Source of the DNA: Branchiostoma floridae
Taxonomy: Eukaryota > Chordata > Leptocardii > Amphioxiformes > Branchiostomatidae
Length of the DNA: 64,000 nt
Direction of reading: 5' to 3'
Assembly (NCBI RefSeq): GCF_000003815.2
Contig: NC_049997.1
Location: 9,387,060-9,451,059, forward strand
This document shows, piece by piece, positions 9,282-45,922 of this stretch (position 1 is the stretch's first letter; each line of letters opens with the position of its first letter). The translations under genes and the position numbers were made by a program. The notes below the pieces were generated by a model. That model was not told the DNA's origin and searched no databases. It was given only the letters and a program-made list of their open reading frames with translations.

Positions 9282-12200
9282 CTACACACAGTTATAACAT
9301 GGTGGTAGTGTGAAGTAGTTTGGAGAGGCAGGCGTGATGTGACATGCCTGCAGTCTCAAACTGGGTGTCTCGTGGCGACGGGGGAGGGGGGGTACACATG
9401 CACACACATGACACAAGACAGGGAATAAAAACCATCAATAGAATATGTAACATACCGAGAGAATAATAACATCATCTCGAATAATTGAACGTTGACTGAA
9501 CAACGTGGTGTGGTGCATGCAAGACGTATATATCTTAAACAGATTTGAATGGGGGTGACAGGGTTAGTTTGCCCGTAAATAACGCTACGGATTGCTGATG
9601 ATATTTTCGCCAAAGCATGTTTGACAGTCAGCTGATTTTGAGGCCTATTTCAGTGTTTGAATGGAGGTAGTACGCAGGGGTATACTTACAGATCCTTCCT
9701 ATACAGCCAGCCGTGAGGTGTGAACGCAAACCGCCGTGCGTGTGGAAAAGGGCACAATGAACGACAGGATAAGCAAATAGCCAAATGAAATCGGTGATGA
9801 GTGGAAGGATGAATGATTGAGTGAAGAGAAGAAGGCGACAGAGAGAGTTGTAAGAGGAGCCGCAGAGAGAGCACAGACACGAGACGTGAGACTAGATACT
9901 AAGCCACAAGCTGGATGTGATTAGCCCGGACTAATGTTGTTACCGCCTGCTCCTTTTCTAGTCTAATTATTTGGTCAAAATGACCGAGGTTTTACACCGC
10001 AATCCGCGGTCAATTCGACATAAACCATAATGTAACGTGAAAGATAACAATGTGATAAAAATCAAACACGTCGAGTTTATAAGCTATAGTAAATATGGAT
10101 ATAAGACATAAATGGCAAAGAGGTTGCCCTTCGATTGATTGATGAGTTCGATCAATTTCTTCACTTGTATTGACGATATTAGAAGGCATATAAAGCGGTA
10201 TTGTACACTTGCATGAATACGGAATCGGTAGATGAAAAGTCTATCATACCTTCTGGATGTAATACACGATACCATTAGAGGAAGGACTCCTCAAGAAGAA
10301 GTTTCGAAAAATGGCCGGCGGAAACTACAAAGAGAACGTTACCTTCTATGATGAGCAGGGCGCTACAGAGCGCCATGCCGGAGGTGTTGACGGCCTTACA
10401 CATGTACTCCCCCTCGTCCTCCGGGAAGGTCTCCGGCAGCTCCAGCACCACGCCGTGGTCACCCTCAAACTTGTACCGGTAGTCCTGGTTGTTGGGCAGC
10501 CGCTTTCCGTTCAGGTACCACGTCACATCCGGTTTGGGTCGGCCGATCACCTTGGCCTCGAACCTAGGAAATAAGGACAAACCAAGACCTTTGGCATCAC
10601 AATTCTTACAAACAACTTAAGAGTAAGAGATGAATTGGCTTTGCGTAACTGTGCTATGAACATTTTATATATTCATCTTCTTCCACTCTCCGGGTAAAGT
10701 TGTCCATTTTTTACAAATGCCTGACCAATGAAAAATATCAAGATCGTTACTGTGACGTCAGCAATGGGTCAAAGGTTGGTGGAAGTCGATATCGCCCCCC
10801 GTCACGACTGGGAGGCTGGTGACGTCACGCGCGCATAAAACCACGTGTCCTGGGCGATTGGGTCAAACAGGTGGAAAAAAACTGGCCGAGTCAATCGAAA
10901 ATTCCGGTGAATCCATTTTAGTCGGAGAACAGTTCATTGTTCAGGTCATGCATTTGATAACTGCCATTGGGTCATACAGGTGAAGAAAACTGACCGACTC
11001 AGTCGAAAATAACAGTGAGCCCATTTTTTTTGCTTGTCGGATAACAGTTCTCGAATTTGAGAACTGCCTAGAATCATGAAGTTGATATCATACCTGACGG
11101 GGTCTCCATCGAAGATCGTCATGTTCTCGAAGTTCTTGACGAACTTGGGCGCCAGGTTTTCGCTGGTGGCGGACAGAGGCTCGTCCTCGTCGGAGTCTTC
11201 CACGTCGGACGCCTCCCCCCGGGCGAACCGCTCCATGTACTCCCGTTCACGAGCCTCCTCCTCCTGCTTCAACTCCTCCTACGGGCCGAGGGGGTAGGGT
11301 ACTCCTTGAGTTTGAGTTTATTCAGATCCACAGATAGCTTAGCAATATACAAGCACATTGTAGCTACTCTTCCTGTGGTCCTGATGATGGGGCTGTTTTT
11401 GACGGAGGTGTTCGAATTAGAGTACGGGGTTCCACCTTGTTCTATTTGTTCGATATACGTTCGATTGGGATCGGTCCATTGGACAAAACTACATGCACAG
11501 GAACATAACATAATATAGAATTGTAGTTAGCTATTAATATGATACCCTATATTCATTAAAGAATGATTCTCATAGGCCTCAACCGCGGGTAAATTTTTTA
11601 AAGCTCTACTTAGGCCAACGTCATCTGTGGAAACGAAAAATAGAAATGTATACGTAGAATATGCACAAATTATGCCCACGACTTTTCTCTTTACGTCTTG
11701 TGTCTTTTGGTGCCTTTTATATCATAATTTTCGTTCCCGAAAGCTGCCCGGCCGGGCCCCGGTTTGTTTTTTTGTTTGTTTGTTTGTTTGTTTGTTTGTT
11801 TGTTTGAACCTTTGTTTATTCATGAGAAGCTCAAATCGGCCAGCAGGCCGCTTTTCATTGAGGTCATGATGGAGGTCAGGGTCATATAAAATATAATACA
11901 GGTTTGACGTAGGCCTTAACTCTCGGCTGAGATGTTTGACAAGAATTAACTAAGCTTTAGATTATCATAATGCAAATGTATTGAATCACAATGCTGAACA
12001 GATATCAAACGGTCTAGAATCACACTCTCTTAGATTTGCGGACAGTTGTCACCAAACATCTAAAGTTATTACTGTGAAAGTTAAAGAAGCTTAAAGTTTG
12101 TTATGTACTCACAGCTCGGCGCTTGTGGGAATACAACAGAAAAAATACAATTAGAAAGAAGACATAAAAAAGTGTTGTTAAATACAGCGGTAGAGTGAGT

Positions 12201-15200
12201 GATGTCATATAGAAGAAAGTGTTGTTGGCACTCAATTTAGTAATCAGAAATTATTTTATCGTTGTTTTAAACAGTTCAGAAGAAAGAAGAGCAGGAATAT
12301 CACGTTATAAGAAACACGACACAGGCCAAATACAGGTTGTTTCTTTCGAGGTAGATAATTTCGTATGTGTTCTCCTTATTAATGATGTGAAATGTAAGTT
12401 TAACTCAAACTTTCTGATAGAGAAAATTAAGCAATGCTGTCTTTTCCGAGTTATGTTACCAGAAAGTGGTGTTTTGTGCCAGAAAAGGGTTGGACAACTT
12501 TCCTGTGTAAGCGGAAATGACATCACTCACCGTTCCTGTGACGTCACCCCCACCCACCTCCTTCCTGCGCGCCTCGTCAATCTCACGCTGTTCCAGCATC
12601 AGCCGCTTCCGCTTTTCCTCCTCAATGCGCCTGCGCCGCTCCTGCTCCTCATAGCTCTGTAAAACGTATTTAAGTTACCAAATAGCGATAATAACAATGG
12701 AAAGTTTTCGTGCTTGTGCTAGTGTGTGTCTATACCATCCAATTATGATTCAGAGATATGGCAATCAGCAGCACAATCTCTGAAAATAGTCAGAAGAACC
12801 AGAATCGATTCCAAAATACCCTTACATTGCATTACATGTCAACCGTAACTATGGCAATCTTTAACTCTTTCTCTAAGAGTGAGTTAACAAACCTCGAGAT
12901 TCTCGAACCGTGAGAACAGTGCCCGTGTTCTCTGTTTCCTGGCAACCTTGTCCTCCTCAGTCTCCGCCGCTTTGGGCTCCTCCTCCTCCTCCTGAGCCTC
13001 CTCGGCAGCCTCTTCCTCCATCTGGTAAAGATAAACAAGTTAAAACTCATGGCAAGTATCAGAATAAACACTTCGGATGACTTGCGATAGGGCAAGGAAA
13101 GAGAAGAGATGCAGCAATAGTGACAGAACAATGTGACAAACGTGAAACACACAAATAGAGCAAAACAACAATTAATGCAGTACAGTGAAAACAGATAGCC
13201 ATGAGTGGTTCGTTTCCGTCTCCAACTTGATATTCCTACACGTTTAGAATAGGGCGTTTTTTTAGGTTTGAAGATGATGCGATTTAAAATACATTTTACT
13301 TCGTGAGACCAAATTGGACTCTGTTGTTCTATTGATTATGGATAAGAATATTCTCTTTAATTTCTAAACAGGCACAAAAGAATCAAAATAGGACGGAAAC
13401 GATAGTGAGAATTTCTAAAAAGCCGCAAAAAGAATCTGAATAAGATTGAAACGGTAGTAAGTAGAAGAAAGGGACAGAGGAAAGTACAATAGCGGGTACA
13501 TGTAGAAATGTTAACGTGAACATATCACGAGATGTACGAAAATGATGGCGATAGTTATTGTATTAAGTATGGTATGAACAAATTCGGTTAGTGTTACAGA
13601 TGATGATGAGGTCTAGGAATGGAATGGAAACATGAAGCGTTTACTAGTAGTAATCTCCAAGCAGATCCTACGGTACCGTGAGATAGTATTAAAACCGGCC
13701 AAAGGGAGTCAGATGGACATACACATTCCTAGGCCGGCTTTACTCCTCCGTCAGCGTTTGATACAATCTTATGCGCATACTACCGTAGGATCTGCTTGGA
13801 GATTATACCAGTAGAAACATGGGCGCACGGCGCCACCTAGTGAGTTGAATTGTATCTACAGGAGGAGGATAGGAAGGGAGGGGAAACGAAAGAACACACC
13901 CCGACCATTTTCTCAGTTCTCTCCAGCTCCCTGGCGAGCATCTCCCGGTCCATCTCCAGGCGGCGAGCTCTCTCCTCTTCCACCTTACGGAGACGTTCCT
14001 CCTCTGCAACCTTCAAGAAACAAAACAATCTTTCTTAGAACCATGCTTCATAAACGGACTCTTTCAACGGGGAAATGAAAGGTAGCAGACTTTATTGTCT
14101 TATCCAAACTGCTACGCACCTATCGCTGTCCCACAGAAAGAAACAACAATACTGAGGACCGCTGCATTGTGAACTTGTGTATTGGAAATTACAAACACAC
14201 GTACACAGATAGACTGGCAATTAGACAATCCAAAAACAACATAGTAACTGCTCTCAAATGTTCTAACACACACTTAACTCCCATGTGAAATAACTTATAA
14301 TGGAAATTGACATTCCTGTTATCTATAAAGTCTTCTTTCTCTTTCTAAAACATGATCTACATACCTTGTCGATATTTTGGAATTTCTCGAAGAGCGCACT
14401 GGCACGCTTGTTCTTGCCAGCCTCCTTGACATCTGTGGCCTTCAGTCTGCGCTGTTCCTCCTCTTCTTCCTTCTTCTTCTGCATAAGGGCGAATCTGAAA
14501 TATGAAGGGTAACGGTGGAACATCGACGATTCAAATTGCGGAGCAACCACTACGAATCGTCTTTAAGTCATGTTAAGTTTAAGAAACTGCTCAACCTTGC
14601 AAAGACAACCGGTATAACTTGTTCTAAAAGTTTATAATGATAATTCGACCATGTTTCTTCTTTTGCAAGCTGAACCCTTCGGAGTGTTTTACGAACCTTT
14701 CTTTTACGCTGAGGCGAGGCCCAGATTCCTCGGGTGTAGATTCGACCGGCTCTTCTCCCTCCTGGTCTCCTCCCTCCTCCGCGGCAGCAGCCTCCTATCA
14801 AAACCACGCATGAAAAGAGCTCAAACAACAAGTTTATCACTATCTATATATCTGTTCTTTTTCGTTTGTTTTTCTGTAAGCAATTTTATGACTTGGGTTT
14901 TTTTTAAATGTTTCTTATATGTTGCTGACAAAAGGAGAAGATGATGAAAAGGAGAGAAGTTGCATTAAGAAGTTCATAGAATGAAGATCGAGTCAAGAAG
15001 AGTTTTAAGAGAGAAGAAGAGAAGACAGGGACGCCAGTTCACCTCTGCCTCAAGTCTGGCCCTTTCCTCCTCCAGACGTTGCCTATCCTCCTCCAGTTTT
15101 CTCTTTCTTTCTTCCTCCGCCTCCCGTCTGGCTTCTTCCTCCTTCTGTCTGGCCAGCTCCTCAAAACTGATCGTCAGTTTTCCTGGCTTCGGCGCCTTCT

Positions 15201-18200
15201 CAGCGCCTGCGTCGTTTTCTTGGTCCTCTGAACTCTTTTTCTGAAGTTCTTCAAACTTATTCTTAAGTTTCCCTGGTTTGACTTTCTCCCTTGGCGTGCC
15301 GTCGTCTTCGGAAACTCCGGATTCTTTCTTCTTTTGAAGTTCGGTGAATTTGTTCTTGAGCTTTCCAAGGGACACCTTGGGAGAGGTGGCGTCCTCTATG
15401 GATTCTTTGAGCGCCTCTGCCTCTTTTTCCTCGGCACGCTGCTCCGCTAGCTGCTCCTGCTCCTACGTCAACAGGGAGTCGAGGACGTCAAAATATGCCA
15501 ACTCAGTATAGAGGAATGTTTGTACACACATTACATATATATGACACATTTTCTGCATCATCATCCAACATCATCAAGCCTTAACACGCTCATGACGCAC
15601 TCGCATACTCATGGACTGATATTTTGTCATCGCTATGCGAATTACAGTTCATTCATCATTCATGCTGGTTTACGTTTTAATATCATACATCACACCTTAA
15701 GCTACTCAATTCCTTTTTGTGTTCCTTCAACATTGCCCATAAAATAAAAAAAGTCCTTGCACCACGTCGCATAACTTCAATGTACTTCTCATTGACATCA
15801 GAAGCCTGAACATCTGACAGGTCGATTCCACTTCATGCGTTCCTGCCGTTTCCACAAGTCGATCAACAAGGCTGTATTGAGCATCACGGCAGGCATGTGC
15901 ATCCATTCCAGAGAGATAAATGCATAGAAAATACATTGTTTCCTTTAACTATGGCAGATTTCTAGAATCTGGAATGTAAAACCTCTTGTAATCGTTCCTG
16001 CCGTTTCCACAAGTCAATCAACAAGGCTGTATTGAGCATCACGTCAGGCATGGGAATCCATTCCATAAATATTCATTACGAGAAAATTCCTTGTTGTGTT
16101 TAACTATGGCAGATTTCTAGAACTAGAATATAAAACCTCTCGTAATCTTTCCGCCTCTCTCTCAAGCTCCGCGCGGTCGAATTCTAATCTACTTTTTCGG
16201 AGCTCCTCTGCTTTTCTTCTGTCCTCCTCCTCTTTTCTCTGACGTAGCGTGACGTAGTCGGCCTTAAGTTTACCGGGCGCTCTTCTCTCTCGCTTAGTCT
16301 CGCGAGTTTCGGCGAGACTTTCCTCTGGGGATGCTTCCTGGTGTGGACAGGTTAGCTTCGTCACTTTGTGCGTTATGTCACGCGAAGGAAAAAGCGCCTT
16401 CGGTGGAACAGTTTTCCGTATTTTTACTACGTGTAATGTCTTGCTTCCAAACGACACATTTTTGCAGCTCGCCTATCAAAGAGAACAAGGATAAAAGCCA
16501 TATGCGACGGCTCTCATGTCATTAACATAATCTTTCACGTCAATAAATCTTACGCTTAAAGCAGAACCATTATCAACATATGTCAGAGTTCTTCCCCCCC
16601 TTGTTTCGAAGTTATTCTTTCTATAACTGATAGCTATATCATCAAGGCCAGAGCACATCTTATCTTTTCGTCAGTTCACTTTTATCCAAGCACCCTGTCC
16701 CTGTCTACGTATCTTGCCCCCACCCTTTCAAAAATACAAACATGCCATTGATTTAGTCATATTTGACCGTTTCCGGTTCAAAGACATCATAATCTGGCCG
16801 ACCTCATACTCAGCTTCTCTCTTGGCGGCTTCTTCTGCCAAGATCTTCTTCTCTTCCTCGAGTCTGCGCAGACGCTCTTCCTCTGCCTTTTTGCGAGCCT
16901 CTTCCTCCTTCTGACGCTGCATCACTTCGAATTTCCCGCGCAGACTCCCCCTTTTTGGTGGTGGTATGTCCTCCTTGACTTCCGGTTTATCCTCAGCCTC
17001 TTCCTCATTGGCCTGCTGAGAAATTAGTCAAGCCAATCAGAAAAGCTCTAGGTTATGACCTATGCCCTACTTGCTAATGTGTCGTGTATGTATGTGCAAA
17101 CACATGCATCTGTTTCATGAAGAAAGGCTGTATGTGATTCCATGTCAGAGAGCCAAGCTGCCAAGGCAAACGTCGTGATCATGAGATGCATAGCAGCAGA
17201 CAGATGACGATACGTTTTAACTTTCAGCAACAAGGAAAAAGAGAAATGGTCAGATGCAAAGCAAGCTTTGTCTTACTATATACTATTATGAATCTAACGG
17301 TACATACGCATCACACATTATAATGAAGGCGCCAAAACTTGACACAGGCGCAAACTTTGTAGTCTATAAGGTCTAGGACTATTCCCTCGTATGCAAACAA
17401 TTGCAAAGAGGTAGTAGGTGGCATGCTCAAAAGACGCGTATACGTAGCACAAGACCGTCCTCAAGTATAATTCACCGAAGCTGACTCTTGCTGTGCTTGA
17501 TTTTCAAGCTCGCGCTCTTGTGCCAATCTGTCGGCTTCCAGTCTCCGGAGCCTCTCCTCCTCAGCTTTCCGCCGACCCTCCTCCTCTCGCACCTTCCTGA
17601 GCTCTTCAAACCGACCTTTGACACTGCCCATGGGTTTTTCGGGCTCGCCACTCAAATCCTCTAACGAACCCGCGAGCTCGTCTTCTTCTTCCTACGTGTG
17701 AGATGAGTACAGGAAGAAAGATGCAAACATATGGTGGTGTTATGGTTGGTTATGGTTATGTGAACATATGCCAGGGGTTTGGGAAAAACATGAAACAAAT
17801 TCGTAGACAAATTTACGCAAACAATGGCATAAAAACATAAAAGGAGGGTGATATGAAAGGGGACCAGGATGATCAACAGTAAAAAGAAACAGCAAAACAA
17901 AAAGGGGGGTTATCAAGCAAAGACTCAAATTGAGGGGTAAATAAGATGAAAAATTTCTTGATTTTTTTCCAAATCCTCATAAATGCATGCAATTCCACAA
18001 CCTTAAGCCAAAGCCAAACTTAATAATATAACCAAAAAAACTTTCATGCTTTACATAAAAAAAGCAAAATAATTTCTGTGAAAAAGGACAGATGACGAAA
18101 ACCTCTTTTTTCCTATTCCTCTCTTTCTCTCGCTCCTGCATCATTTTGTCGAACTCAAGTCGACTCAACTGGAGTTCCTGTGCTTTTCTTTGTGTCTCCT

Positions 18201-21200
18201 CTGTGCTGTTTTTGATTTGGTGGAGTCTATCTTTGACACTTGGGACGGGTTCACTTATGTCAAGGGGGGTCCCTTCAGAGGGACTGTCATCATTGTCATC
18301 CTGATGATTGATGGGATGGGGGACAGGAAAAAGGAAGTACGCTATGTTAACTACAACGTTCAGAAAAACATAAAGAAGACATAACAAATGTAGTTATCTT
18401 AAAAATGCCAAGAAAAAGTGCACTGCAATATTATGAGCATGAATTAAGTTTAGTTATATCAGCTTAAGTTAAGTATTAAGCTGTAACCGCTACTGTTACT
18501 GCTCATAAAGCACTTTTGAGAGAAGACAAACAAACAAAAAGACTACACACTTCAAACATTACATTACTGGGATAGAGGAAGACAAACAGCATAGATCACA
18601 TCACACTCAAGTTTTGAAGGAACATGTGTCGAGACAAACACATCTTGGGAGAGGTTATTGTCTTAAGACTCTTACTTCATTATTTTAAGGTGGTTATGCA
18701 CAGTTAAAATTCTCAAATGATTAAACCAAAGAGTAGTTGTGTCAACATAACATCGTGGATCTTTTCAGGCTGCCTTCAAAACTTGAGGTTGTTCGGAAGA
18801 TGATGCGATCGCGAAATGTGGAGAAAAGAAGCAGATGTGATTACATCGCAAGGCACCTCATCCTTTTCTTTGCGTTCTTTCTCTCTCTCTTGCGCTATTT
18901 TGTCGAGTTCAAGTCGGCTGAGGCGGATTTCTTGTGTTTTTCTTCTTTCGGCCTCTTCTCTCTTTTTCCTCATCTCCTCGAATCGGTTCTTGACGTCGAG
19001 TTTTCGGGGTTTCGTCGTTTCGTTGGTCTCGTTTACTTCGTTTTCTTCCTCATTATCCTGCGCAGATGTGGGACAACGATGTAGTCATGTGATTATGTTT
19101 GGAATTTTCTGCGAGGAACTCTTGCATTGCTGCGCTAATATCAAGCCTAAGTTACTGTAAAAAAAGCTCGCAGCCACTGCTACGGATGGAACATCTAAAA
19201 AGGGAGAGCAGAGTTTTATGTTTAAGAACTGTGCTCACATGACATGAGAGGAAAGCATTATGAAACAAATTCGTATATGGATAATAATCTATCCATATTA
19301 CTTTATCAGATTTGTGAAATCATCTTCCCTTTCTTGCCATGTTTTGCACTATTGCGGAGGTATCTGCAACAAAAAAGCATTACATTACCATTAGGTTATG
19401 TCCTAAGCGCCAGATCCAGTAACTAATCTACAAGTTTTGAAGCGCTGTATGATATAAAATGAGCCACCTTCCCGGTATCACGTATGAACGTATCCAGCTT
19501 TTTTAGTCGCCTGGGTCGTGGTTCTGTCGTTCTGGGCTTCTCTTTTGCCTCCCTCAAAGCTTCGAACCGATTTTTCATACTGCCGCACGTGCCCGGCTGG
19601 GGCACACCAGATTCTCCATCAGCGTCACTGATAAACGATGACGTAAGGGATGACGTCACGGAAGCGCTATCACCATCTTCTTCCTCGTCCTGCAATATTT
19701 GATGATACACTTTGACTAAAATGGGGACTTTGAAAAAAAAAATCTGACCGTCCAAACTTTGCGGAGAAATGGGACTGAAATAATACAAAGGATAAACAAC
19801 GCACGGATTTCAAGATCACCTCTACTTGTGAGGTCTTTTCCTTCTCTCGCTGCTGCATCATCTTATCGAACTCGATACGGCTAATCCGTATCTCCTGCGT
19901 TTTGCGCCTCGCTTCTTCCTCTCGACGCTTTCTGAGGTCTTCGAATCGACCTTTCACGTCGCCCTTTGGCCTGTTTCTAAGCTTGATGGACTCGCTGGAC
20001 GTGTACGTTTTATCCTCCTCCTGCTGATGCGGAGAATGCCCGTTGATGCCATTGACCTGTAGGACATCCACACCATCAACGATAAACTACTCATTAGACC
20101 AACTGCAATACACAATGGGGTACTTCTAATTACTACAGAAAGGGAAGGGACAGAAAACGCTGGCTAAGAGAAGGGAATCTACAATGTGTGGAAAGGAGGG
20201 AAGCTTTAACCTGTTCAACGCTGACCGTCGACTCTGATTCGTTCTCTATTGCCTGTTTCTCGAGCTGTAGCCTGCTGAGTCTTTCCGTTTCCAACTGCCG
20301 ACGGTGCTCCTCGTCTCGAGCCTTTTGCATCTCTTCATAACGGCCCTTAACACTGCCGATCTTTTTCGTGAGTCTGGGAGACGTGTCAAGACCGTTGACT
20401 TCTGGTTCTTCAACATCTTCTTCTTCCTGAAGCAAGGGACAGAAAGGGACGGGTCATTTCTATGTTCGGAGAAGCAGTTCAAAAGCAACAGAGGGCACTG
20501 ACCATGGTCGTGAGCATGTCCAATACATTCCTTACTTGCTCACTCATCTGAAATATCTCAGCCACCAGGGGAAAACAAACAGTTGCTCAACTCACTATCA
20601 ATATCCAAAACACCAGTAAAGACCTGCTACTAGTGCTAGACAAGAGTCTAAAGCTACAAGGGGCCAGAAAGCTAACCTCGGCTTTTGTAAAGGCGGCCTC
20701 AATGGACAGGCGAAGGGACTCTGTTTCAGCCTGAATACGCTGTTGTCTCTCTTCTTCCATTTGCCGTAACCTCTCCTCCTCTTTGGCTTTTCTCATAGCT
20801 TCGAATTTTCCTTTCACACCACCACGCGTGACTCTTGGAATGTCGGTAACCGTTGGCTGGAAGCTAGCGCTGCTACTGGTGTCTCCATCCGATTCCTACA
20901 TGACATCGACACGGGAATCTTGTATTCAGACTTAACAACAGAGGTTGGTTGAAAAGACTGGTAACCAGTGGAATAGACAAGTCATTGGAATGATAACGAA
21001 GAGAGAAGTGGCCACCTTTTGGGAAAAGTTGGCATAGATCCGTTTGGTGAAGAGTTGAAGATGGGCGAAGTTGAAATTCTCCGAGGTTGTCTCTTGTAGT
21101 GCCACCAAAATAGGCACGCTTTTAAGATGCATGTATGGCTACATGGGTAGTATTACTCGGCAAATATAGTTTCTACAAATACCTTAGTGTTTATTAATCA

Positions 21201-24200
21201 CAAGGATAGAAAGAAAAGAAGTACGATGACTTTTTGTTCAGAGTACATGCGTTTATTCACACTGTGAATACTCTATACATTCTGAAAGTGCTTCTTAAAC
21301 TAGTGATACTCTACTGATTACTATGAATCCTTCAAATCTCTTTAAACGATGATGATTGCGACACAAACGGCAAGGGCAGCGACAGTACAGTTGACGTGCA
21401 GTTGCAAACAAGAGACAATCTCGGGAGGGAGACAGAGTGGAGAGGTCTAACGTCACAGGGATCAGACAGAGGCAACAGGCAACATTGTGACAATATGCAA
21501 CAATGTAACAAGGAAGCTACAACAACAGAACAACAATTGACGCTTGACCACCATATCATCAAAGACGTAAACTTCTACTGTACATATTTGCTTGACTAAG
21601 TATTCTTCTCATTTCATTAGGCCTTAAAATACAACACATCTCTCGCTTAAATGGAAGACATATGTCAGTTCTAAAGTATATCTAGAGAACGCAATGTCCA
21701 TGGTCTTCTATTTTGGTGGTTTACAAACTTTACGTCGACACCACATCAAAGTAAGACAAGAGAGCCCAAGATTGAAATGAAGGAGTAGCAAAGACAGGTG
21801 GAGCTCTGAAGCGAAAGTTTGAGTCAAGTGACAAACTTTGAGGTGAAAGCTATAGACTAAAGTATATATGCATTGTGTGTATTTGTGCATTGTCATGAAT
21901 TTTGTATCCGTCAAGGTACGAGTAAAGTAATTTTCGTAAACACAATGTTTTATAACTTACCTTGTCTCCTGCACCGGAAGCATGTTAATAGGTAGGCATA
22001 AACGGTCAAATCTTAAACTACATCAGAAAACCAGAAAACTGTAGAGAATATTAAATTTGCCTTCATAAGGGCATAAACAATGTTGTTAGATCAATGATAT
22101 TGAACTTTGCCATACTTAAATGGCTTTCCTCAAAATATTGTTAGTATGTACCAACGATTAAAATCTACAGTAAGCAGGTAAGACGGATATGAAATACGCA
22201 TATACGGATTATACTGATATTTTGGCGGATATGTATGTGGATATACGAGAGCCACTTTATAAAGAACTAAGCTCACCGATACCTCCTGCTCTTCCGCCTT
22301 GCGTGCAGCCTCCCTCTCCAGCTGCAGCTTGTCCATCTCGATCCTGCGCAGTCGCTCCTCCTCAGCGCGCATGCGCGCCTCCTCCTCTTTCTGTTTCTGG
22401 ATCTCCTCGAACTTGCCCTTGAGGTAACAGAATACAGCGTTTTATGGACTCCAAATTGAGGGGGTTCGACGCCTCAAAATTTATAACAGAGTGCAAAAGT
22501 AATTAAAAAGAATTGAATCTGTTGAAGTTAATGGTAGAATCTACAAAATATGTGGAAATGAGCTTTAGTTTGTCTGCTCGTTCTCCTATCACAGACACTT
22601 TATTTGACCCCAGCGGAGGTCACCATACTGCAGCCGCGGGAACAGGGCTCGTGCGCGGAATTCTACCAAACCAAACAAACATCGTAACCCAAGTCTTACA
22701 GTCTCAAAATTGAGTTTCCGACTCGCTAACGTGCGCAGAAATAATCTAATGGCTCTTTCAAGAATTAAGACGCACTATTTTGTGCCCGAACTACTTTTGT
22801 CGCGGATAAATACTTTGTTAAGCTACCTTGATGCTGCGTCTCTTTTCGGTCGGCAGGTCGGTGGGCGTGACGGGCGGGGCGGCGGACGGAGGGCCTGACG
22901 GGGTCTCCATCTTGTCAAACATTTCCTTTGGAAGGTAAGAGAGTAGTTAGCATTTCATTCCACTCTTGTTTGCGATGTTCGAAGAGTTAAGATTGGCCAG
23001 AATTCAAATTGATTAGTAAGGAATTAAATGATATTTCTAAACTGGGAAAGCATAAACATTTTTAGGTACAATATTATAAGTTTCTTTCGGATACAAATAT
23101 AAGATATCTTATGAAATAAAACTTAGCTGAAGTTCACTAATACAACTTTTGTTAATATATCCCTTTTGAAACATAACCTATATTGCTAACGACTCAAGAA
23201 ACACCATCAGACATTGTATACAAATATAGGGCCTATTCTTCCTATAAGATATCCTAACCCCAAAATAAGACACTCTGTAGCTACGAATACATGTACATGT
23301 TAGAGAAACGAAATCTGCATTGATACATGTCTTTCTATGAACACCCTGCAGTCTCACCCACCCCTTCTCCTGCAGCAGCACTTCCGTCCGACTGAAAAAA
23401 GGTAATCACACAAACTCGTTATCATGCACAGGGACATATTCACGTAATTTCAAGAAAGAATGATAAAGGGCTGATAATGGAAGATCATCCATTTTGGGCG
23501 CATTACATCAATGCCAATAAATCTGATACAAATAAACTGCACGTCTGTATGATGTTGGTATCCCGTAAAATGTTTGCCAGTACGGATTAGTTAGCTATAG
23601 GTGATTTGGAAGCTAGAATTTTAGGACAATGAAGAAGAATTTCAAGACGATGACGGAAAGCGACACAAAGGGCACACGAATCATCAGTGGCAAATTTTTA
23701 TTTATTTTAGTGTGAAATAGTTGAAAACATTTGACCTGACCAAAGAAGTGTGTTAGAATGTGTGAGAAAGATTCCTGTGAAAAGTAGGTTTTACTTGGCG
23801 TGGAGAGGATTTTTATGTATTGGGAAGCTGCAGAGGAGATCAAAGGCCTTTCCCATCATGCAATTTGACCTTTGACATCCAGAAAGGCGGGAGTCTGAGT
23901 AAGCTGGTGGATGAGACTGCAGTGTTAACGATAAATATTGAGAGATCTAGATCTGTGAAAGGTTAGGTAGGATTTTTCACGTGTTAAATGCACGAAGAAG
24001 TACCTCCTCCAACTGTTTTGAGATCAAGCTTTCCTGTTCCTGTTGCTGAATCTGTCGGTCCATCTCAATCCGCCTCTTTCTTTCCTCTTCCGCCCTCCTA
24101 CGCTCTTCTTCCTCCTATAAAGAGTCCGGAAGGGATGACGTTAATATTTCACGCCAAAAAGCAGTTACTCAAGCAACTGGATATGGTTTTGGAAACGGTC

Positions 24201-27200
24201 AGACCAGACGTTTCAGGCATCATAGATGAGTCTTTCGAAAGACATCGGATGGTGTCTGGGTGTCATAACCCTCATCGACGTATGTTAATATTTCATTGTT
24301 TATTTATTTACGAAACCGGAAATAGTCAAATTGTGTGTATTCAGCGAATCTAAGATATGAAACACTATTTATTATTGCCAGCAACACATAAGTTGATACG
24401 TTTATTGCTTCTTCTTGCTCGAGGGAAAATTGCAAGTTACAAAAATGACAGACATGATAGACAAGCAATAAAGCTAATTCTGAACGTACCTTTTGTTTCT
24501 GCATCTCTTCAAACTTCCCCCTCACGCTGCCTCGCATCTTCGGTACGTAACTTTTCGGAGTTTCCTTTGGCTTTTCTTTCACTTCTTCCTCCTCGTCGGA
24601 GTCCATCAACTCCTAAAGAATTCAATATTCAAATAAAAAGTCAGAAAGTATGCCGGGACATACGCAGTGTTTTTCAGCAAGATTTAGCACTGTAACGATA
24701 TCCGGAACCGGCCTACTGCATTCGCTACTCTAATCTATGGAGAAATATGTTTGTGAGAGAATGCAGGCAAACCAAAATATACCAAAGAGTAATCAAAGGT
24801 GTATATTAGCACAGAGAGCCCCGAACTGCAGTTCACTGTACTCTTTACAGACAGACTAATGAAAAATGATCTTAACATTCATACAAATATTGCTATGTAC
24901 GTCTGTGTACGTCTTACTCCAAGAGTGCACAACATGCGGAAAACAAATCAAGCAAACACAAAAACAAGACTACAAGAAAACATTGACAATACAGAAGAAA
25001 AGACATTTACCGTGGATGCTGTCAACCCGATAAACAAAGACAAAAGGAAGTTCAGAAAAGAGTGGCAAGCGACAGTCAACAATAGCAAATGCGACAAAAA
25101 CCTTCAGGAATTGTTTTCTAAGTGCTGAGTGTTTCTCCCGCTGGTCACGTGACTCCCTCTCCTTGCGAACTTCTTCGAATTTCTTAGCCTCCTTCTCCTC
25201 CTTCCTGACCCGCATCTGTTCAAACCGTTCCTTAACGTTCACATTGGCAAACTTAGGAACGTACGTGGCGGAGGTTTCGGGCTCCTAAACGTTTGAGATA
25301 ACGTTGGGAAAATGGTTACACAAAAAACGACAAGAAATATAAGAGAAAGGGAAGAGAACAACAACAAAACCAGACAAAGACTCGGGAAAGTTGGAGGAAA
25401 ACATATCGACACAGAAAGAAGAAACATGAATTGGTTCATGTCATGGCTGCATCAATACACCTGCAGAGCCACTTGGAAATACCCTTAAAATATACAGTAC
25501 TTTTATCATAACGTGGGTTTTATTTCACCACTAGTATCTTAGTCCTTTCGATGAGGCTATAGGAGAACTTGTAAATCCCTTGTATAACTTAGTTCTCTAT
25601 TCACAACAACATGTATCAATCATGTTTGGGACCACATCTTTAAGAAGTAACATAGTCTCTCATTTTTTGTTGTTTGACAACATATACGCAATGAGGCTAT
25701 CCTTTTTAACCTCCTTGATACGCGTAATTTACGTAAATGTGAAAATACTTTACGTTTGCATTGGGACCGCATTGTAACGATGCAGTAGCGACATCTAGCT
25801 GCAGTGCGAAAAGTACATCCTACTCTGAGGAAGGTGACAGACAGTCACCGGAACGTCGGTTCTTGTGCAACATGTGCATGTAGTCGTGAATAAAGAACCG
25901 TGTTATTCAGTACATAAAATATCTTCATCTTTATAGAAATGTATAACGCTAGGTCACCTTTATCCGCGGGGTAACCTCTATCCGTTGCATGTAGAATCGG
26001 AATATTAAGTGATATCAAGTCGACAGACGACTGTTTCAGACTGGAATGCGATGAAAACATTGCAATTTGAAACCAACGTCCGTCGACTAGATATCCCTCA
26101 ATACATCATTTTAAAAACAACGGATATAGGTTACCTTGTGGATTAAGGTGAACTACCGTTACATTAATGGCAGGTGGTAGACACAGCCATGACTAAGCTT
26201 GATGAAATCGGATGTGACAGACGACTACTCCCTCTACTCCACGGTACTGTAACCATGGTAACGTTACCTTCTTGGGCTGCAGAACAACCTTAGCAGCGGA
26301 ACGGGGCAACTGAACCTTGGCAAGACCTGGTACGATCGGGTCCTAGTAACATTTAGCAAAGACATCAACTTTACTATCTATTACCCATCCTACGCAGGGA
26401 CATCCAACAACCAAACTGCCTGTCTGGATGTGCCCTGCTCTCTCAACCGCCACCCTTAGTTCCTGACCGCCCTGCTTATAAATAGAGGGGGCGTCCACAG
26501 GAACTAAGAGTGACGGTTAAAAGAGCAGGGCACATCCAGACAGGCAGTTTGGCTGTTGGATGTTCCTGCGTAGGAGGATGTCTATTACCATACGTACTCC
26601 GATACTCGTCTTACAAGTCAGTACTTGCAAGTTGTATGTAACCGCGCTGTCGTTTGAATTGAGACTATTGTGATATATTCTATTGTTTATTGCCAATGAC
26701 ATTAGTCATCGTTAGAAAGTTCGAGTTTTCTAAAAGTATACATGCTTTAGCAAGCTGAGATATCTTAAGTATGTTAAACATGCCTTAGTCCCCATGCACT
26801 TATTGGTCAAATGAAAGAAGTAATGAATGAATAATGAATGAACGAACAAAAAATGAATGAAATAATGAAAATGAATAAACGAATAAATGAATTAATGGTT
26901 TAGTGATAATGACAACATTATTTCAACGTTGTAATGATAGTACAAACTAACTATTGCAGAACTGGGAATGGCAACAAGCGATGCAATGACGAAAACGGTA
27001 GCGAGCTACTCAAACAAATTTCCCCCGAACTGAATTGGGCTATGTTTACTTTCTTAACTGCCAAAACCGAATATATCCGGCACACATATACATGCCCTGT
27101 GTGCCGTGCCCGGTTATAACCGGGATAGCGTATTCCCCCGTGCGCGTGTAGCGCACGAACCCCGGAAGTTAACGTTTGGGACTTCGGCCTTGTTCGGGTG

Positions 27201-28643
27201 TCTCTTTTCCGGGGTCAGCGGCCAACCCTGGCACTAATAGCATTTTATAGGGCTGAAACTCTGGCAGTTTAAGGGTTAAACTTTTTGGGGGTACATTTAG
27301 CTGTCACATCATGACTCACACCAACGAGACATCTTCCTCATTGCTAAATCTATAAACGTTATGTGAACTTTAAAGAAAAACGCAAGATGGCGTTTCTTTC
27401 TGCCAGCTGCCTGAATCACAAGTTTGAGCTATTCTTCGATAACCTCCCTTTCCACGATGTACAAAATGAATAGGAAAGAGATACCATAACGTTTTACTTT
27501 GAAAACCCGAAAAAAAAACATTTCTTCTACGGTTTGAACACCATTCAAGAAGCTGCTCTATGACTAAGACCACAGACTCGGTGGCTTAAGATTTTAGGTA
27601 AACAACCCTAAAAGGAAAGGGGAATAAATAAGGGAGGCCTGCATTTGCCGTGACAACTTAAAGTACGTGAGCAAAGACAAGACTTGGCACTGGAACTTTC
27701 AACATCCCCAGACTTTTAGTCTTTCTGGCTTGACTTGTTGATGTTTGGTTTATGTCTGCCAGGACCGCGTCAAATGGATAACGGGTTCTCATCACAGAGA
27801 GCTAGAAATAAGTAAAATTCCTGATATACAGGTTATAGACTTAATGAACGAGAGTATTACAATGAACTGTTTGAAAAAAGGAATGTCTTCTCATATTTCA
27901 GTTGTAACGTAAGTTTCCCTCGAATGTACAAGTTTTTCACGAGAAAGCTGTCCGAATTACTCTGCGGTAATATATGTCAAGTCAGTTTCGCGTATAGATA
28001 ACAAAGGATGACATAACATAAAAATTGACTATTTTTGGTCGCATGCCCTATACGAGACCAATAGTTCCCGACCCAAGACCAACTCTACGTGAATCTAGAA
28101 TAACCGTTCCGTTTAAGGCCTCCAAGGTCATGCACGTCATCCGACCATGGGAAAGAAAAATCCAAACGACGAAAGCATGGTGACAGGACAAAACTAGATA
28201 CAAAAGAAACACAAAGGCAGACAAAAAACCAAACTTAAACCTATTTGTTCAGCCCCTGTTTGTTACTGTTTACAAAATTTTCAACATTGTTTATTGACGT
28301 CAGCGCCGTGATATCATATGTTAGATGGAAACAGTGTATCTTTAGGGTGCGTTAGGATCTTACAGTGTTGGAATGTGGAGTACTATAGTTTACAGACACA
28401 ATTTGTAAGAAAATCGTTACTGCGTCTTGTTTGTAGAACCACTGTGTTTCCGACGAGTGGTAAGCCGTGACAGGGAGTTCATTGTGCGTTAGTGTAACCC
28501 TTAGCTTGCCACACAAAACCGTCTAGTGTTTGTACAAGACACACGATCCGGCGACTCACTTTCTTGTTGTCGCCATTGACGGAGTTGGACGATGGTTCTG
28601 TGGCCGACTGCTGATCGGAGTCCCCCTCCCCTGTCTTGGCCAT
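8605..28643 (-). CDS. NEXN: Nexilin-like modular actin-associated protein, whole gene (about 27 exons)
   Basis: Vertebrate nexilin is an F-actin-binding protein of Z-discs and cell-matrix junctions; this homologue is inferred to do similar work. The exons E1-E27 listed below join with compatible phases to about 1,620 residues. Order: acidic and basic N-terminus; two YVPK-containing modules as in vertebrate nexilin; about 15 further head-plus-helix modules (head like GSVKGRFEEM, then E/K/R-rich helix); a PGKLK subgroup also seen in vertebrate nexilin; an EQREID segment; an I-set Ig domain with LPETFPEDEGEYMCKAVN; then a long K/Q/S/T-rich tail. Introns between modules are phase 0; the Ig exon has a phase 2 intron before it and phase 1 after it. 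The start chosen is the ATG at 28643 in context ACCATGG. An in-frame ATG at 29160 on a spliced upstream exon would add 12 residues. Identity is strong; E6 and E10 are uncertain, and isoforms are likely. Confidence 0.9.
10343..10563 (-). CDS. NEXN: Nexilin-like E26: I-set immunoglobulin domain
   Basis: The 73 residues have RPKPDVTWYLNGK (C-strand Trp) and LPETFPEDEGEYMCKAVN, the D-x-G-x-Y-x-C F-strand motif nearly as in vertebrate nexilin. The B-strand position normally occupied by Cys is Ala (RFEAKV), so the usual intradomain disulfide cannot form, which fits a cytosolic protein. Phase 2 in, phase 1 out (donor GTAACG). This domain is the strongest single evidence for the gene's identity. Confidence 0.96.
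10858..11069. repeat. ~105-bp tandem duplication in intron E25/E26
   Basis: The two copies (10858-10966, 10967-11069) both start ATTGGGTCA.ACAGGTG and share AACTG.CCGA.TCA, TCGAAAAT, CGGA.AACAGTTC and GAACTGCC or AACTGCC. Divergence is about 20%. Confidence 0.7.
11094..11278 (-). CDS. NEXN: Nexilin-like E25: pre-Ig acidic segment and first Ig strand
   Basis: The exon gives 61 residues plus two bases. A basic/acidic helix leads to SDVEDSDEDEPLSATSE and then APKFVKNFENMTIFDGDPV, the A-strand region of the Ig fold. It ends in phase 2 (AG|G, Arg). Donor GTATGA. Confidence 0.93.
11626..11762 (+). repeat. Interspersed repeat, copy 1 (GC-rich end)
   Basis: Runs from TGTGGAAACGAAAAAT to GGGCCCCGG. 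An inverted copy lies at 30250-30385. Shared blocks include ACGACT.TTCTCTT, GTCTTGTGT and CGTTCCC.AAAGCTGCCCGG. It is followed directly by a (TTTG)n tract, as a retroposed tail might be. Too short to classify. Confidence 0.65.
11763..11807. repeat. (TTTG)n microsatellite
   Basis: About nine TTTG/GTTT tetranucleotides in a row in the intron between E24 and E25, adjoining the interspersed repeat at 11626-11762. Confidence 0.9.
12558..12656 (-). CDS. NEXN: Nexilin-like E24: helix with conserved EQREID
   Basis: The 33 residues start SYEEQERRRRIEEEK and contain LMLEQREIDEARRKE. The EQREID core is a signature of vertebrate nexilin just before the Ig domain. Phase 0; acceptor TTTACAG, donor GTGGGT. 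Confidence 0.92.
12893..13021 (-). CDS. NEXN: Nexilin-like E23: acidic linker and RALFSRFENLE
   Basis: The 43 residues have an A/E-rich acidic run, then KVARKQRTRALFSRFENLE, which echoes RASALFEKFQNIDK of E21. Phase 0; acceptor TTACCAG. The donor GTTTGT is weak. Confidence 0.85.
13651..13805. mobile_element. Family A MITE in a nexilin intron
   Basis: Ends TAATCTCCAAGCAGATCCTA and its near-perfect inverse, with inner arms carrying CCGGCC and GATA(G/C)TAT. It lies in intron E22/E23, about 100 bases 3' of exon E22. Confidence 0.8.
13906..14010 (-). CDS. NEXN: Nexilin-like E22: charged helix
   Basis: The 35 residues begin VAEEERLRKVEEERARRLEM and form a pure charged helix, matching the EEERARR region of vertebrate nexilin. 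Phase 0; acceptor CTTGAAG. The donor GTCGGG is weak. Confidence 0.87.
14365..14494 (-). CDS. NEXN: Nexilin-like E21: module 16, K/E-rich
   Basis: The 43 residues continue the head (FALMQKKKEEEEEQRR), pass through DVKEAGKNKR and end in a second head-like segment, ASALFEKFQNIDK, comparable to the LKSKFEKI segment of nexilin. Acceptor ATTTCAG, donor GTATGT. Confidence 0.88.
14697..14794 (-). CDS. NEXN: Nexilin-like E20: acidic linker and start of module 16
   Basis: The 32 residues begin EAAAAEEGGDQEGEEP and end RLSVKE plus two bases of an Arg codon. This is the only phase-2 break in the module region: AG of E20 joins A of E21 to give SVKERFALM. The donor GTTCGT is weak but fixed by the phase and the module pattern. 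Confidence 0.85.
15043..15462 (-). CDS. NEXN: Nexilin-like E19: three PGKLK-type heads in one exon (modules 13-15)
   Basis: The largest module exon (140 residues). It holds LGKLKNKFTELQKKKE and PGKLKNKFEELQKKS as short modules without a full helix, then PGKLTISFEELARQKEEEAR with a full helix. The first two heads are near-identical, indicating internal duplication within the exon. Phase 0; donor GTGAAC. Confidence 0.92.
15838..16146. repeat. 155-bp tandem duplication spanning a nexilin splice donor
   Basis: Copies 15838-15992 and 15993-16146 both begin CGTTCCTGCCGTTTCCACAA (the second copy's spacing is 154) and end TAAAACCTCT.GTAAT. The right-hand end of copy 2 is the real E18 donor and the last 10 exon bases; copy 1 holds a near-identical decoy donor. 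Confidence 0.85.
16137..16337 (-). CDS. NEXN: Nexilin-like E18: module 12, first PGKLK head
   Basis: The 67 residues include RRAPGKLKADYVTLRQRK and a helix ending REAERLRE. The PGKLK head is the type found in the central repeats of vertebrate nexilin. The donor GTTTTA and the last 10 exon bases lie inside a 155-bp tandem duplication (15838-16146), so a near copy of this donor lies 155 bases further downstream in the transcript. Confidence 0.9.
16803..17015 (-). CDS. NEXN: Nexilin-like E17: module 11
   Basis: The 71 residues start QANEEEAEDK, with head RGSLRGKFEVM and a helix ending AAKREAEYE. The acceptor has a tandem CAGCAG, so the first Q can be included or dropped. The donor GTCGGC has a pyrimidine at +3. 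Confidence 0.9.
17476..17691 (-). CDS. NEXN: Nexilin-like E16: module 10
   Basis: The 72 residues start EEEDELAGSLEDL, with a canonical head MGSVKGRFEEL and the most consensus-like helix in the gene (RRKAEEERLRRLEADR). It ends QQESAS at donor GTGAAT. Phase 0. Confidence 0.92.
18103..18300 (-). CDS. NEXN: Nexilin-like E15: module 9 (TQEIR subgroup)
   Basis: The 66 residues have linker DDNDDSPSEG, a diverged head (PSVKDRLHQIK, lacking the usual FEE) and helix QELQLSRLEFDKMMQERE. Phase 0; acceptor CATCAG. The donor GTTTTC is weak. Confidence 0.88.
18857..19057 (-). CDS. NEXN: Nexilin-like E14: module 8 (TQEIR subgroup)
   Basis: The 67 residues have linker DNEEENEVNETNETTK, head KLDVKNRFEEM and helix RRKTQEIRLSRLELDKIA, ending in KEKDE. 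Closely parallel to E12. Phase 0; donor GTGCCT. Confidence 0.9.
19468..19689 (-). CDS. NEXN: Nexilin-like E13: degenerate module 7 lacking the helix
   Basis: The 74 residues have an acidic S/T-rich linker (DEEEDGDSAS) and head GSMKNRFEALREAKEK, but the usual E/R helix is replaced by a short basic stretch ending FIRDTGK. Phase 0; acceptor TTGCAG, donor GTGGCT. It sits between two TQEIR-type modules. Confidence 0.85.
19820..20056 (-). CDS. NEXN: Nexilin-like E12: module 6 (TQEIR subgroup)
   Basis: The 79 residues have head KGDVKGRFEDL and helix RRKTQEIRISRIEFDKMM. The helix is of a subtype shared only with E14 and E15, pointing to recent local exon duplication. The acceptor CCTACAG is chosen over an in-frame CAG 36 bases into the exon. 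The donor may be GTGATC (used) or GTAGAG six bases earlier. Confidence 0.88.
20211..20426 (-). CDS. NEXN: Nexilin-like E11: module 5
   Basis: The 72 residues run from an acidic start (EEEDVEEPEVNG) through head KIGSVKGRYEEM and a helix with ETERLSRLQLEK to the end SVEQ. Phase 0; acceptor TGCTTCAG. The donor GTTAAA is weak. Confidence 0.9.
20503..20547 (-). CDS. NEXN: Nexilin-like E10: putative 45-base exon
   Basis: Acceptor ATATTTCAG and donor GTCAGT enclose 15 in-frame codons, MSEQVRNVLDMLTTM. An internal GTAAGG could give an even shorter form (MSEQ). It has no module signature. Its only support is splice signals and a length divisible by three, so it may be an optional exon or a false call. 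Confidence 0.33.
20677..20895 (-). CDS. NEXN: Nexilin-like E9: module 4
   Basis: The 73 residues comprise an acidic/serine linker (ESDGDTSSSA), head RGGVKGKFEAM and a helix ending EAAFTKAE. One complete module in one phase-0 exon. The donor is GTTAGC, with a pyrimidine at +3. Confidence 0.88.
22277..22417 (-). CDS. NEXN: Nexilin-like E8: helix of module 3
   Basis: The 47 residues begin GKFEEIQKQKEEEARMRAEE and continue as a charged helix ending EEQEVS. The acceptor is CTCAAG. Two in-frame donors are possible: GTGAGC at 22271-22276 (used here) and GTATCG six bases earlier in the transcript. The choice removes or keeps only V-S. Confidence 0.88.
22827..22925 (-). CDS. NEXN: Nexilin-like E7: proline-rich linker and start of module 3 head
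   Basis: The 33 residues start EMFDKMETPSG, run through a P/T/A-rich stretch and end in EKRRSIK, which joins GKFEEI of E8 to complete a standard module head. Phase 0; acceptor CCAAAG, donor GTAGCT. The exon is GC-rich compared with its flanks. Confidence 0.8.
23362..23391 (-). CDS. NEXN: Nexilin-like E6: putative 30-base microexon
   Basis: Acceptor TTTTTTCAG and donor GTGGGT enclose 30 bases reading SDGSAAAGEG in phase 0. The small acidic/glycine sequence resembles the linkers between modules. Inclusion is a prediction from splice signals and phase only. Confidence 0.4.
24004..24114 (-). CDS. NEXN: Nexilin-like E5: helix of module 2
   Basis: The 37 residues include EEERKRRIEMDRQ, close to the vertebrate nexilin segment EEERKRRIEQDM. 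Heptad-like charged helix with Q-rich end. Phase 0 at both ends; acceptor TATAG, donor GTACTT. Confidence 0.9.
24151..24262. repeat. Family B MITE, truncated copy
   Basis: Begins ACGCCAAAAAGCAGTTACTC and continues AAGCAACTGGATATGG..TTTGGAAACGGTCAGAC, as in the full copy at 47637-47787 (inverted there). The distal arm is lost. It starts 36 bases upstream of the E5 acceptor. Confidence 0.7.
24490..24612 (-). CDS. NEXN: Nexilin-like E4: acidic linker and second YVPK head
   Basis: The 41 residues are acidic at the start (ELMDSDEEEE), then SYVPKMRGSVRGKFEEM. The exon is phase 0 at both ends, with acceptor TTTAG and donor GTACGT. It carries only the head of module 2; the helix is in E5. This head/helix split recurs at E7/E8, so the first modules keep a two-exon design while later ones are fused into single exons. 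Confidence 0.9.
25102..25284 (-). CDS. NEXN: Nexilin-like E3: first YVPK module
   Basis: The exon gives 61 residues starting EPETSATYVPKF, with head NVKERFEQM and a charged helix ending RKQFLK. The YVPK plus VK.RFE pattern is that of the nexilin N-terminus. The acceptor TTTAG is good. The donor GTTTTT is weak; I chose it because RKQFLK joined to ELMDSDEEEE of E4 aligns with the contiguous RKQEIK-EMLASDDEED segment I recall from human nexilin. Reading on past the donor loses coding character. Confidence 0.82.
25824..25857. repeat. Short hairpin motif CTGAGGAAGG...CCGGAACGTC
   Basis: CTGAGGAAGGTGAC, loop, then GTCACCGGAACGTC. The stem GGTGAC/GTCACC has compensated differences from the 52532 copy (GGTCG/CGACC), so the structure rather than the sequence is kept. 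The layout is common in retroelement-derived animal repeats (my recollection). Confidence 0.5.
25944..26161. mobile_element. Family C MITE in a nexilin intron
   Basis: The ends TAACGCTAGGTCACCTTTAT and AAGGTGAACTACCGTTA are inverted, followed inward by GGGGTAACCTCTATCCGTT and AACGGATATAGGTTACC, then a GTCGACAGACG.../CGTCCGTCGACT inner pair. Length 218 bp. It lies in intron E2/E3. Confidence 0.8.
26268..26342 (-). CDS. NEXN: Nexilin-like E2: short basic N-terminal exon
   Basis: A 75-base exon in phase 0 between acceptor CTAG and donor GTAACG. It gives 25 residues ending in KVVLQPKK. Basic and proline-containing, it sits just before the first YVPK module. A 195-bp foldback element begins 43 bases upstream of its acceptor, inside the branch-point region. 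Confidence 0.7.
26377..26589. mobile_element. 195-bp foldback element with 9-bp target duplication next to exon E2
   Basis: The element 26386-26580 is two ~90-bp arms (CATCCTACGCAGGGACATCC and its inverse, continuing through CTGCCTGTCTGGATGTGCCC) around a short A/T-rich loop. Only a handful of arm mismatches are visible. It is flanked on both sides by TCTATTACC (26377-26385 and 26581-26589), a 9-bp target-site duplication that fits the Mutator-like group. The clean duplication and high arm identity indicate a young insertion. Confidence 0.88.
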
Positions 28644-28667
28644 GGTTTTGGTTTTACTAGGCTGCAC
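28560..28667 (-). CDS. NEXN: Nexilin-like E1: N-terminus
   Basis: Acceptor TTTCTACAG lies before 28667 and donor GTGAGT at 28554-28559. The ATG at 28643-28641 has a strong context (ACCATGG) and begins MAKTGEGDSDQQ. The exon gives 28 residues, S/Q/D-rich and probably disordered, and ends in phase 0. The 24 bases 5' of the ATG are open in frame and may be coding if E0 is used. Confidence 0.65.
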
Positions 28668-30249: not shown

Positions 30250-30385
30250 CCGGGGCCCGACCGGGCAGCTTTTGGGAACGAAAGTATGATGTAAAAGACA
30301 CCAAAGTACACAAGACATGAAGAGAATAGTCGTAGGCATTATTTGTGTATATTTGGCGTATACATATCAATTTTTCGTTTCCACA
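30250..30385 (-). repeat. Interspersed repeat, copy 2 (inverted)
   Basis: Reverse complement of the 11626-11762 unit with roughly 85% identity by eye over the aligned blocks. It has no (TTTG)n tail. Confidence 0.65.
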
Positions 30386-45730: not shown

Positions 45731-45922
45731 CTACGAGGAAGATCTTAGATACTCTTGAGCAATTGGCAAACTGCGTCCCAGTTGGCTCCTAGACATCCGC
45801 TTCAGATCACACGGTGCTCTCGGCCTGGAGTGAGCAGGGCTGGCTGGTGGGGGGTTTGCCTTCACATGGCCATTTCCGGACTTGTCTCCTCCAGGAGCGC
45901 CATCTATCGCCACCATATGGAG
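45731..45922 (-). CDS. SLC1A2: SLC1A2-like exon 10: predicted C-terminal tail
   Basis: After acceptor CCACTTCTGCAG the phase-0 frame is open for 63 residues to TAG (45731-45733). It starts [20 protein letters not shown], is P/S/R-rich and ends EYLRSSS. C-tails of EAATs are variable, so homology cannot confirm it. The acceptor and first nine codons come from a tandemly triplicated ~140-bp unit (45897-46300), which suggests the exon boundary was built from, or overrun by, a repeat. Confidence 0.55.
   Translation of the reverse strand, partial: LHMVAIDGAPGGDKSGNGHVKANPPPASPAHSRPRAPCDLKRMSRSQLGRSLPIAQEYLRSSS

Follow-up and report, generated by a model that had tools for sequence, protein, structure and literature searches.

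What happens to an actin-binding protein when the repeated modules along its length approximately double in number? The question is raised by a gene on the minus strand of a 64,000-nucleotide stretch of the lancelet Branchiostoma floridae genome (contig NC_049997.1, positions 9,387,060 to 9,451,059 of assembly GCF_000003815.2), referred to here as the window, in whose numbering all positions are given. Judged by its sequence, the gene is a divergent nexilin with approximately twice the modules of the human protein, the extra ones lying mid-protein, and is probably the lancelet ortholog of nexilin (NEXN), a protein whose loss leads to dilated cardiomyopathy. A typical module would comprise an acidic disordered linker of ~23 residues and a charged helix of ~40–50 residues, with the head motif (VKGRFEEM or PGKLKNKFEEL) forming an amphipathic helix start. 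We propose, with a probability of roughly 50%, that nine added VK-type modules make the lancelet nexilin a multivalent binder of the sides of actin filaments (F-actin), with modules that can be skipped in frame.

Identity and Layout of the Lancelet Nexilin

The predicted gene model comprises 25 exons (E1–E25) running from a start codon at 28643 to a stop codon at 8605, with one open frame encoding a protein of 1570 a.a. (182 kDa, isoelectric point 5.4). All 24 introns show GT-AG ends (median length 463 bp) and 21 are in phase 0, the exceptions following E17, E23, and E24; 20 of the 25 exons are symmetric, E1 with its start codon included. Exon ends were picked from the DNA sequence. The original prediction, made from the letters of the window, placed the gene, its strand, its exons, and its repeats in agreement with this model, and it erred in ending the gene at 10343, as the frame runs on into an exon at 9281–8605, adding a tail of 225 a.a.; the short modules and the phase 0 exons also escaped it. 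This tail, rich in K, Q, V, S, T, and P, is in frame after the immunoglobulin (Ig) domain.

For comparison we used a human nexilin sequence of 675 residues with eight modules, ending at the Ig domain. It fits 12 of 12 variant residues in a review (PMC10017460) and contains two exon 3 peptides printed in PMC11640418. Nine mouse primers from the latter study, mapped on this human sequence, place modules 1, 2, 5, and 6 in exons 3, 5, 9, and 10, respectively, and the start of mouse exon 7, also marked by a primer, sits just before module 3.

The joined Ig domain of the lancelet protein was recognized as a Pfam I-set domain (6e-19) and is identical to the human domain at 48 of 96 residues (50%). 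By phmmer it scored 91.6 bits against the human domain, compared with at most 85.9 bits for single-stretch chains and 67.5 bits for the best lone titin Ig among the PDB matches listed; multi-Ig chains among those matches sum higher (titin up to 176 with four stretches), and no nexilin chain is found there. Residues Pro611, Gly650, and Tyr652 (human numbering), which are sites of cardiomyopathy variants in human nexilin (PMC10017460), are conserved in the lancelet domain.

The outer modules likewise follow the human order. The tandem YVPK pair near the N-terminus (m01-m02) matched human modules 1-2 with a score of 282, no other placement exceeding 150, and the m17-m18 region, which carries EQREID and corresponds to the second actin-binding domain (ABD2), scored ~193–194 against human modules 7-8, at most 140 elsewhere, and at most 135 in shuffles (n = 300). 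Between the YVPK pair and a group of PGKLK-type modules lies a residual block of nine VK-type modules (m03-m11; E5-E14, 646 residues); without this block and the 225-residue tail, the lancelet protein would measure 699 residues. Modules m12 and m15 cluster with human modules 3-6 at 90/76 in a module tree, and the added modules m04-m05 matched human modules 1-2 with a score of 182, other placements reaching 138 at most. The lancelet and vertebrate proteins share the YVPK pair, PGKLK heads, counterparts of modules 7 and 8, EQREID, a single I-set Ig domain at the C-terminus, and a gene structure in which many modules occupy separate in-frame exons. They differ in that a short nexilin of the vertebrate type has ~8 modules in ~675 a.a. 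and ends at its Ig domain, whereas the lancelet protein has 16–18 modules in 1570 a.a., with the m03-m11 block, the 225-a.a. tail, and two PGKLK modules lacking a long helix. The nexilin assignment first made for this gene is borne out by the Ig domain, the YVPK pair, the EQREID region, and their order, as are its more than doubled length (2.3 times that of the human protein) and the central position of the extra modules between outer ones in vertebrate order.

Module Number and Repeat Structure

A head pattern, composed after the sequence was read, matched the lancelet protein 16 times, and two degenerate heads (m17 and m18), identified through their alignment with human modules 7 and 8, bring the count to 18. 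With the same pattern the human protein yielded seven matches, plus one by alignment. Shuffled lancelet proteins (three schemes of 2000 each) contained on average 0.11–0.12 matches and two at most. The original prediction counted ~17 modules. Heads are spaced 58–83 residues apart, apart from spacings of 30, 31, and 34 near short modules, and the module cores share a mean identity of 27% in register vs. 12% out of register and 12% when shuffled. By our reading, a long helix is present in approximately 14 of the 18 modules, m07 containing prolines and m13, m14, and m16 being short. Head and helix form a single unit in m10, the one module predicted with related sequences, where the helix begins at the head.

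A profile hidden Markov model (HMM) built from 12 of the 18 modules recovered all eight human modules (10.7–35.2 bits). The modules left out of its construction scored 31.6 (m17), 12.8 (m16), 11.7 (m14), 8.2 (m13), 7.4 (m07), and −1.4 bits (m18), and because shuffled human proteins (n = 900) scored up to 8.1 bits, we counted m07, m13, and m18 by head pattern or position instead. In an HMM scan of 2219 six-frame open reading frames (ORFs) of the window, every hit with E < 0.02 lay on the minus strand inside the nexilin gene and no further module exon was found at that threshold, which short or degenerate ones could escape; four known exons fell above the line (E10, 0.022; E18, 0.11; E21, 0.68; E17, 4). 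Pfam searches (E 0.01) returned no family for any of three module exons or for the first 245 a.a. of the protein, and no Rfam match reached the gathering threshold within the window.

Ten of the 18 modules (m01 and m04-m12) each occupy a single exon flanked by phase 0 introns; m02 and m03 each span a pair of phase 0 exons. In 45 pairwise comparisons of ten modules, differences were most frequent at codon position 3 (65% vs. 43% and 38% at the other positions), and there was no excess of shared codons at identical residues (0.39 vs. 0.41 expected), which shows that these ten copies are old and have been constrained at the protein level. Pairwise core identities (52% between m02 and human module 2, 57% between m15 and human module 6, and 32–68% among m03-m06, m08, m10, and m11, with m07 and m09 lower) likewise say that the copies are old, and say nothing beyond that.

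Actin Binding and the Proposed Role of the Added Modules

Nexilin is a side binder of F-actin, attaching along the filament (PMC10650911). In the human protein, actin binding is impaired when either exon 3, which contains the module 1 peptide, or exon 11 is missing, and is abolished when both are. Exons 6-9, exon 10, and exons 12-13 are not required, and actin co-precipitation did not change significantly when exons 6-9 or exon 10 were deleted (PMC11640418). Because exons 9 and 10 hold modules 5 and 6, module 7 is most likely encoded by exon 11. Taken together with this placement, the exon deletions suggest that the VK-like modules near both ends of the human protein bind actin and that the PGKLK-type modules do not do so measurably.

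The modules of the added lancelet block are VK-type, resembling the human modules that bind, and we propose that they act in the same manner. The VK-type helices may lie on the actin filament, and nine more of them would convert a cross-linker with two sites into a multivalent form that binds along or bridges a longer stretch of actin. The PGKLK-type modules would serve mainly as spacers, and the conserved C-terminal block (m17, m18, and the Ig domain) would be the anchoring part. Since most module exons are flanked by phase 0 introns, they could be skipped in frame, and the reach of the protein may differ between tissues, as is known for mammalian nexilin, whose observed splice variants keep the frame (PMC11640418). 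If this proposal is correct, the longer module array may grip or span actin over a greater distance.

Several points weigh against this proposal. Not every module binds actin measurably, as human exons 6-9 and exon 10 are dispensable. A human Gln131 variant abolishes F-actin binding of a nexilin fragment (PMC10017460), and Gln is found at this position in none of the 12 lancelet modules compared, two of which carry the Glu of the variant. In the mouse heart, ABD2 with the Ig domain suffices; an essential C-terminal block and a middle free to vary fit these data, and the middle may do little. The type assignments are also imperfect: m12-m15 favor human modules 3-6 weakly (160–162 vs. 139 for human modules 1-2), and m01 clusters with human module 8 (80/90) rather than module 1, a pairing of m01 with human module 1 not being rejected (approximately unbiased test, p-AU 0.615). 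Lastly, 2 of 6 consensus positions are matched at the donors of E12 and E15, and introns contain AATAAA hexamers resembling polyadenylation signals.

The layout of the gene sets what is conserved with the human protein (two N-terminal modules, the ABD2 region, and the Ig domain) apart from a middle with a variable number of modules. In mouse rescue experiments the part before ABD2 was dispensable, the N-terminal actin-binding domain included. The variable middle falls within this part, though the equally dispensable N-terminal domain is conserved. The two proteins also form a natural series (8 vs. 16–18 modules, VK vs. PGKLK type) in which actin binding can be tested against module number.

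Helix Structure and Alternative Explanations

AlphaFold was run on E13 (m10) as a monomer, with an alignment of 13 sequences from the window, dimers being outside the scope of this test. Residues 24-71 were predicted as one helix of 48 residues starting at the head, with a linker of low confidence and a predicted local distance difference test (pLDDT) score of at least 90 in 43 of 72 residues. E16, predicted alone and without an alignment, showed helices at residues 2-26, 32-48, 63-79, and 100-139, the second and third of which mark m13 and m14 as 17-residue stubs. The 12 module helices tested are 48–67% charged; none has a hydrophobic heptad seam (best a/d occupancy 0.25–0.42, not above shuffles), and the i,i+3 and i,i+4 charge pairs are net favorable in 16 of 19 predicted helical runs. 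Sequence and prediction alike present the single-alpha-helix signature of high charge, favorable charge pairs, and no coiled-coil seam, and the charge and missing seam of the 12 helices speak for module helices that are lone rather than paired. Single-alpha-helix proteins, as portrayed in parts of the literature (drebrin, INCENP, and CAF-1), resemble the lancelet helices in being rich in charge without a hydrophobic seam; the lancelet helices differ in being 40–50 residues long and split by predicted disordered linkers.

These properties argue for a passive spacer, in which single-alpha-helix struts and flexible linkers would lengthen the distance between the N- and C-terminal actin sites without touching actin themselves. 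The dispensability of human exons 6-9 and 10 for actin co-precipitation (PMC11640418) is in keeping with such a role. However, those exons hold PGKLK-type modules, and the added lancelet modules tested instead resemble human modules 1-2, with module 1 lying in the exon required for ABD1; disordered linkers amid the helices would, moreover, make a poor strut. We consider this explanation somewhat unlikely. The stiff single-helix spacer of the original prediction fits in part: the charge, the absence of a seam, and the AlphaFold helix agree with it, but the helices are parted by disordered linkers, and published findings on human nexilin agree at least as well with VK-type modules that bind actin. 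By a propensity count, the lancelet protein has 664 helical residues, ~100 nm end to end, vs. 312 residues and 47 nm for human, sums that inform little on true reach, the linkers being flexible.

The literature labels the middle of mammalian nexilin as coiled-coil (PMC10017460, PMC11640418) and describes self-association of nexilin (PMC11640418), from which one might expect the helices to pair as dimers and the expansion to extend a dimeric rod; with no heptad seam in any of the 12 helices tested, we regard this as improbable. That the model artificially joins two genes, or includes unused duplicated exons, with true transcripts having few modules, is highly improbable: it would account for the weak donors, the intronic AATAAA hexamers, and the decayed look of m07, but from E2 onward each exon is preceded by an acceptor and joins in a compatible phase, the ten modules tested show protein-level constraint, and both ends keep the human order, although an alternative first exon was not looked for.

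Comparison with Cortactin and Nebulin

The multivalent actin-side binder that we favor has possible parallels in other proteins. Against 177,635 distinct PDB sequences, the module alignment profile produced a single match at E ≤ 0.01, residues 337-394 of cortactin (8p94 chain I; 4e-5), presumably the helical segment after the cortactin repeats, with a calcium channel next (E 0.064). Cortactin also binds the side of F-actin, and its segment resembles a nexilin module, scoring 25.6 bits with the 12-module HMM (none of 2000 shuffles scored as high), although the match is confined to a single stretch. As its composition bias is large (14.1 bits), a common ancestry of the nexilin module and the cortactin helix is a lead only. 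A PDB search with E2 gave no match at E 0.1.

Nebulin repeats are ~35 a.a. long; those of the lancelet protein are ~70 a.a. long and lack the nebulin-family SDxxYK motif, which had no match anywhere in the protein. Nebulin and nebulette remain an analogy in how they work, as repeated actin-binding units whose number is varied by splicing (PMC9140763). A bolder extension would make the lancelet protein a modular actin ladder independent of nebulin, with ~11–12 VK units (m01-m11, perhaps m16) along the thin filament or across the Z-disc and exon skipping setting its length in each muscle. In vertebrates, the two outer parts and the PGKLK-type spacers would be all that remains, in keeping with the finding that the region before ABD2 is largely dispensable in the mouse heart, and the unit, shared with the cortactin helix, would be an unnamed actin-side element. 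We think this extension unlikely.

Origin of the Added Modules

Either a nexilin of normal size received one inserted block or vertebrates lost the block, as far as sequence comparison can tell. The module tree (20 rows, 48 columns; m07, m13, m14, and m16-m18 left out) is nearly unresolved, with 1 of 17 inner branches starred, and it cannot decide between lancelet gain and vertebrate loss because the alternative clades were all not rejected (p-AU 0.215 for m02 with human module 2, 0.221 for m02-m11, 0.434 for m03-m11, and 0.29 for m15 with human module 6). Separately, the cores of human modules 4 and 5 are 73% identical in the sequence used for comparison, suggesting a duplication on the vertebrate side.

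Searched against the whole 513-Mb genome, E13 matched eight places, all within the nexilin gene, and E16 and E25 each matched only themselves among the best candidates scored; no second nexilin locus was found with these three queries, a search in which only the best candidates were scored and other exons were not used. A consensus gene-age list assigns NEXN to phylostratum 10 (tunicates and vertebrates), and the authors' own curation retained 25 of 84 listed genes (PMC11203038). A lancelet ortholog would push the age of NEXN beyond this stratum. In the parts of the literature joining nexilin or NEXN with amphioxus or lancelet, including PMC9527923 and PMC11203038, we found no description of a lancelet nexilin.

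Exon Organization

All exons lie on the minus strand. The first coding exon, E1 (28560–28643), carries the start codon, encodes MAKTGEGD...NKK, and has an acceptor-like site just upstream. E2 (25102–25284) encodes m01 (TYVPK...VKERFEQM), the positional equivalent of human module 1, and has a weak donor (GTTTTT). The head of m02 (SYVPK...VRGKFEEM) is in E3 (24490–24612) and its helix is in E4 (24004–24114).

The nine-module block begins with E5 (22827–22925), which holds a linker and the first part of the m03 head, the remainder (GKFEEI and the helix) following in E6 (22283–22417). The donors of E6, E8, E12, and E15 are weak or have alternatives; 6 nt downstream of the E6 donor there is a better one (GTGAGC). 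One module per exon follows: m04 in E7 (20677–20895), m05 in E8 (20226–20426; 3′ end uncertain), m06 in E9 (19820–20056), m07 in E10 (19468–19689), m08 in E11 (18857–19057), m09 in E12 (18103–18300), m10 in E13 (17476–17691), and m11, which ends the block, in E14 (16803–17012). In E10 the head is retained and prolines occur in the helix region; m09 has one residue fewer in or just after its head; and E13 has an acidic linker before its predicted helix. Across 19689–19340, the helix of m07 appears decayed, and a possible downstream acceptor soon reaches a stop codon, which may mark the end of a short isoform or a decaying module.

PGKLK-type modules occupy E15 (16137–16337; m12) and E16 (15043–15462; the short m13 and m14 and the full m15). 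A tandem duplication at 15838–16152 (period 155, two copies, 85% matches) begins within E15 and includes a copy of the final bases and donor of that exon. E17 (14697–14794) holds a linker and the beginning of m16, and E18 (14365–14494) the remainder of this short module with the head of m17, the equivalent of human module 7, whose helix is in E19 (13906–14010). An acidic linker and the head of m18, the equivalent of human module 8, are in E20 (12893–13021), and the m18 helix with EQREID is in E21 (12558–12656).

A tentative 9-nt microexon (E22u, 12113–12121; RRA) has a pyrimidine-rich acceptor and a full-consensus donor. E23 (11094–11278) encodes a linker and the first part of the Ig domain, and E24 (10343–10563) the remainder of this I-set domain. 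The last exon, E25 (8605–9281), encodes the 225-a.a. tail, which has no counterpart in the human nexilin used for comparison, and contains the stop codon. The intron between E22u and E23 contains a sequence (11576–11869) related to another beyond the gene (30203–30427), translating as SRKLPGRAPV/SQKLPGRAPV, perhaps a dispersed repeat.

Genomic Surroundings

Further tandem duplications were noted in the window at 45896–46180 (period 156) and 678–941 (period 114). Upstream of the nexilin gene, three minus-strand ORFs within 48551–59638 match the SDF (sodium:dicarboxylate symporter) family, suggesting an SLC1A-like gene.

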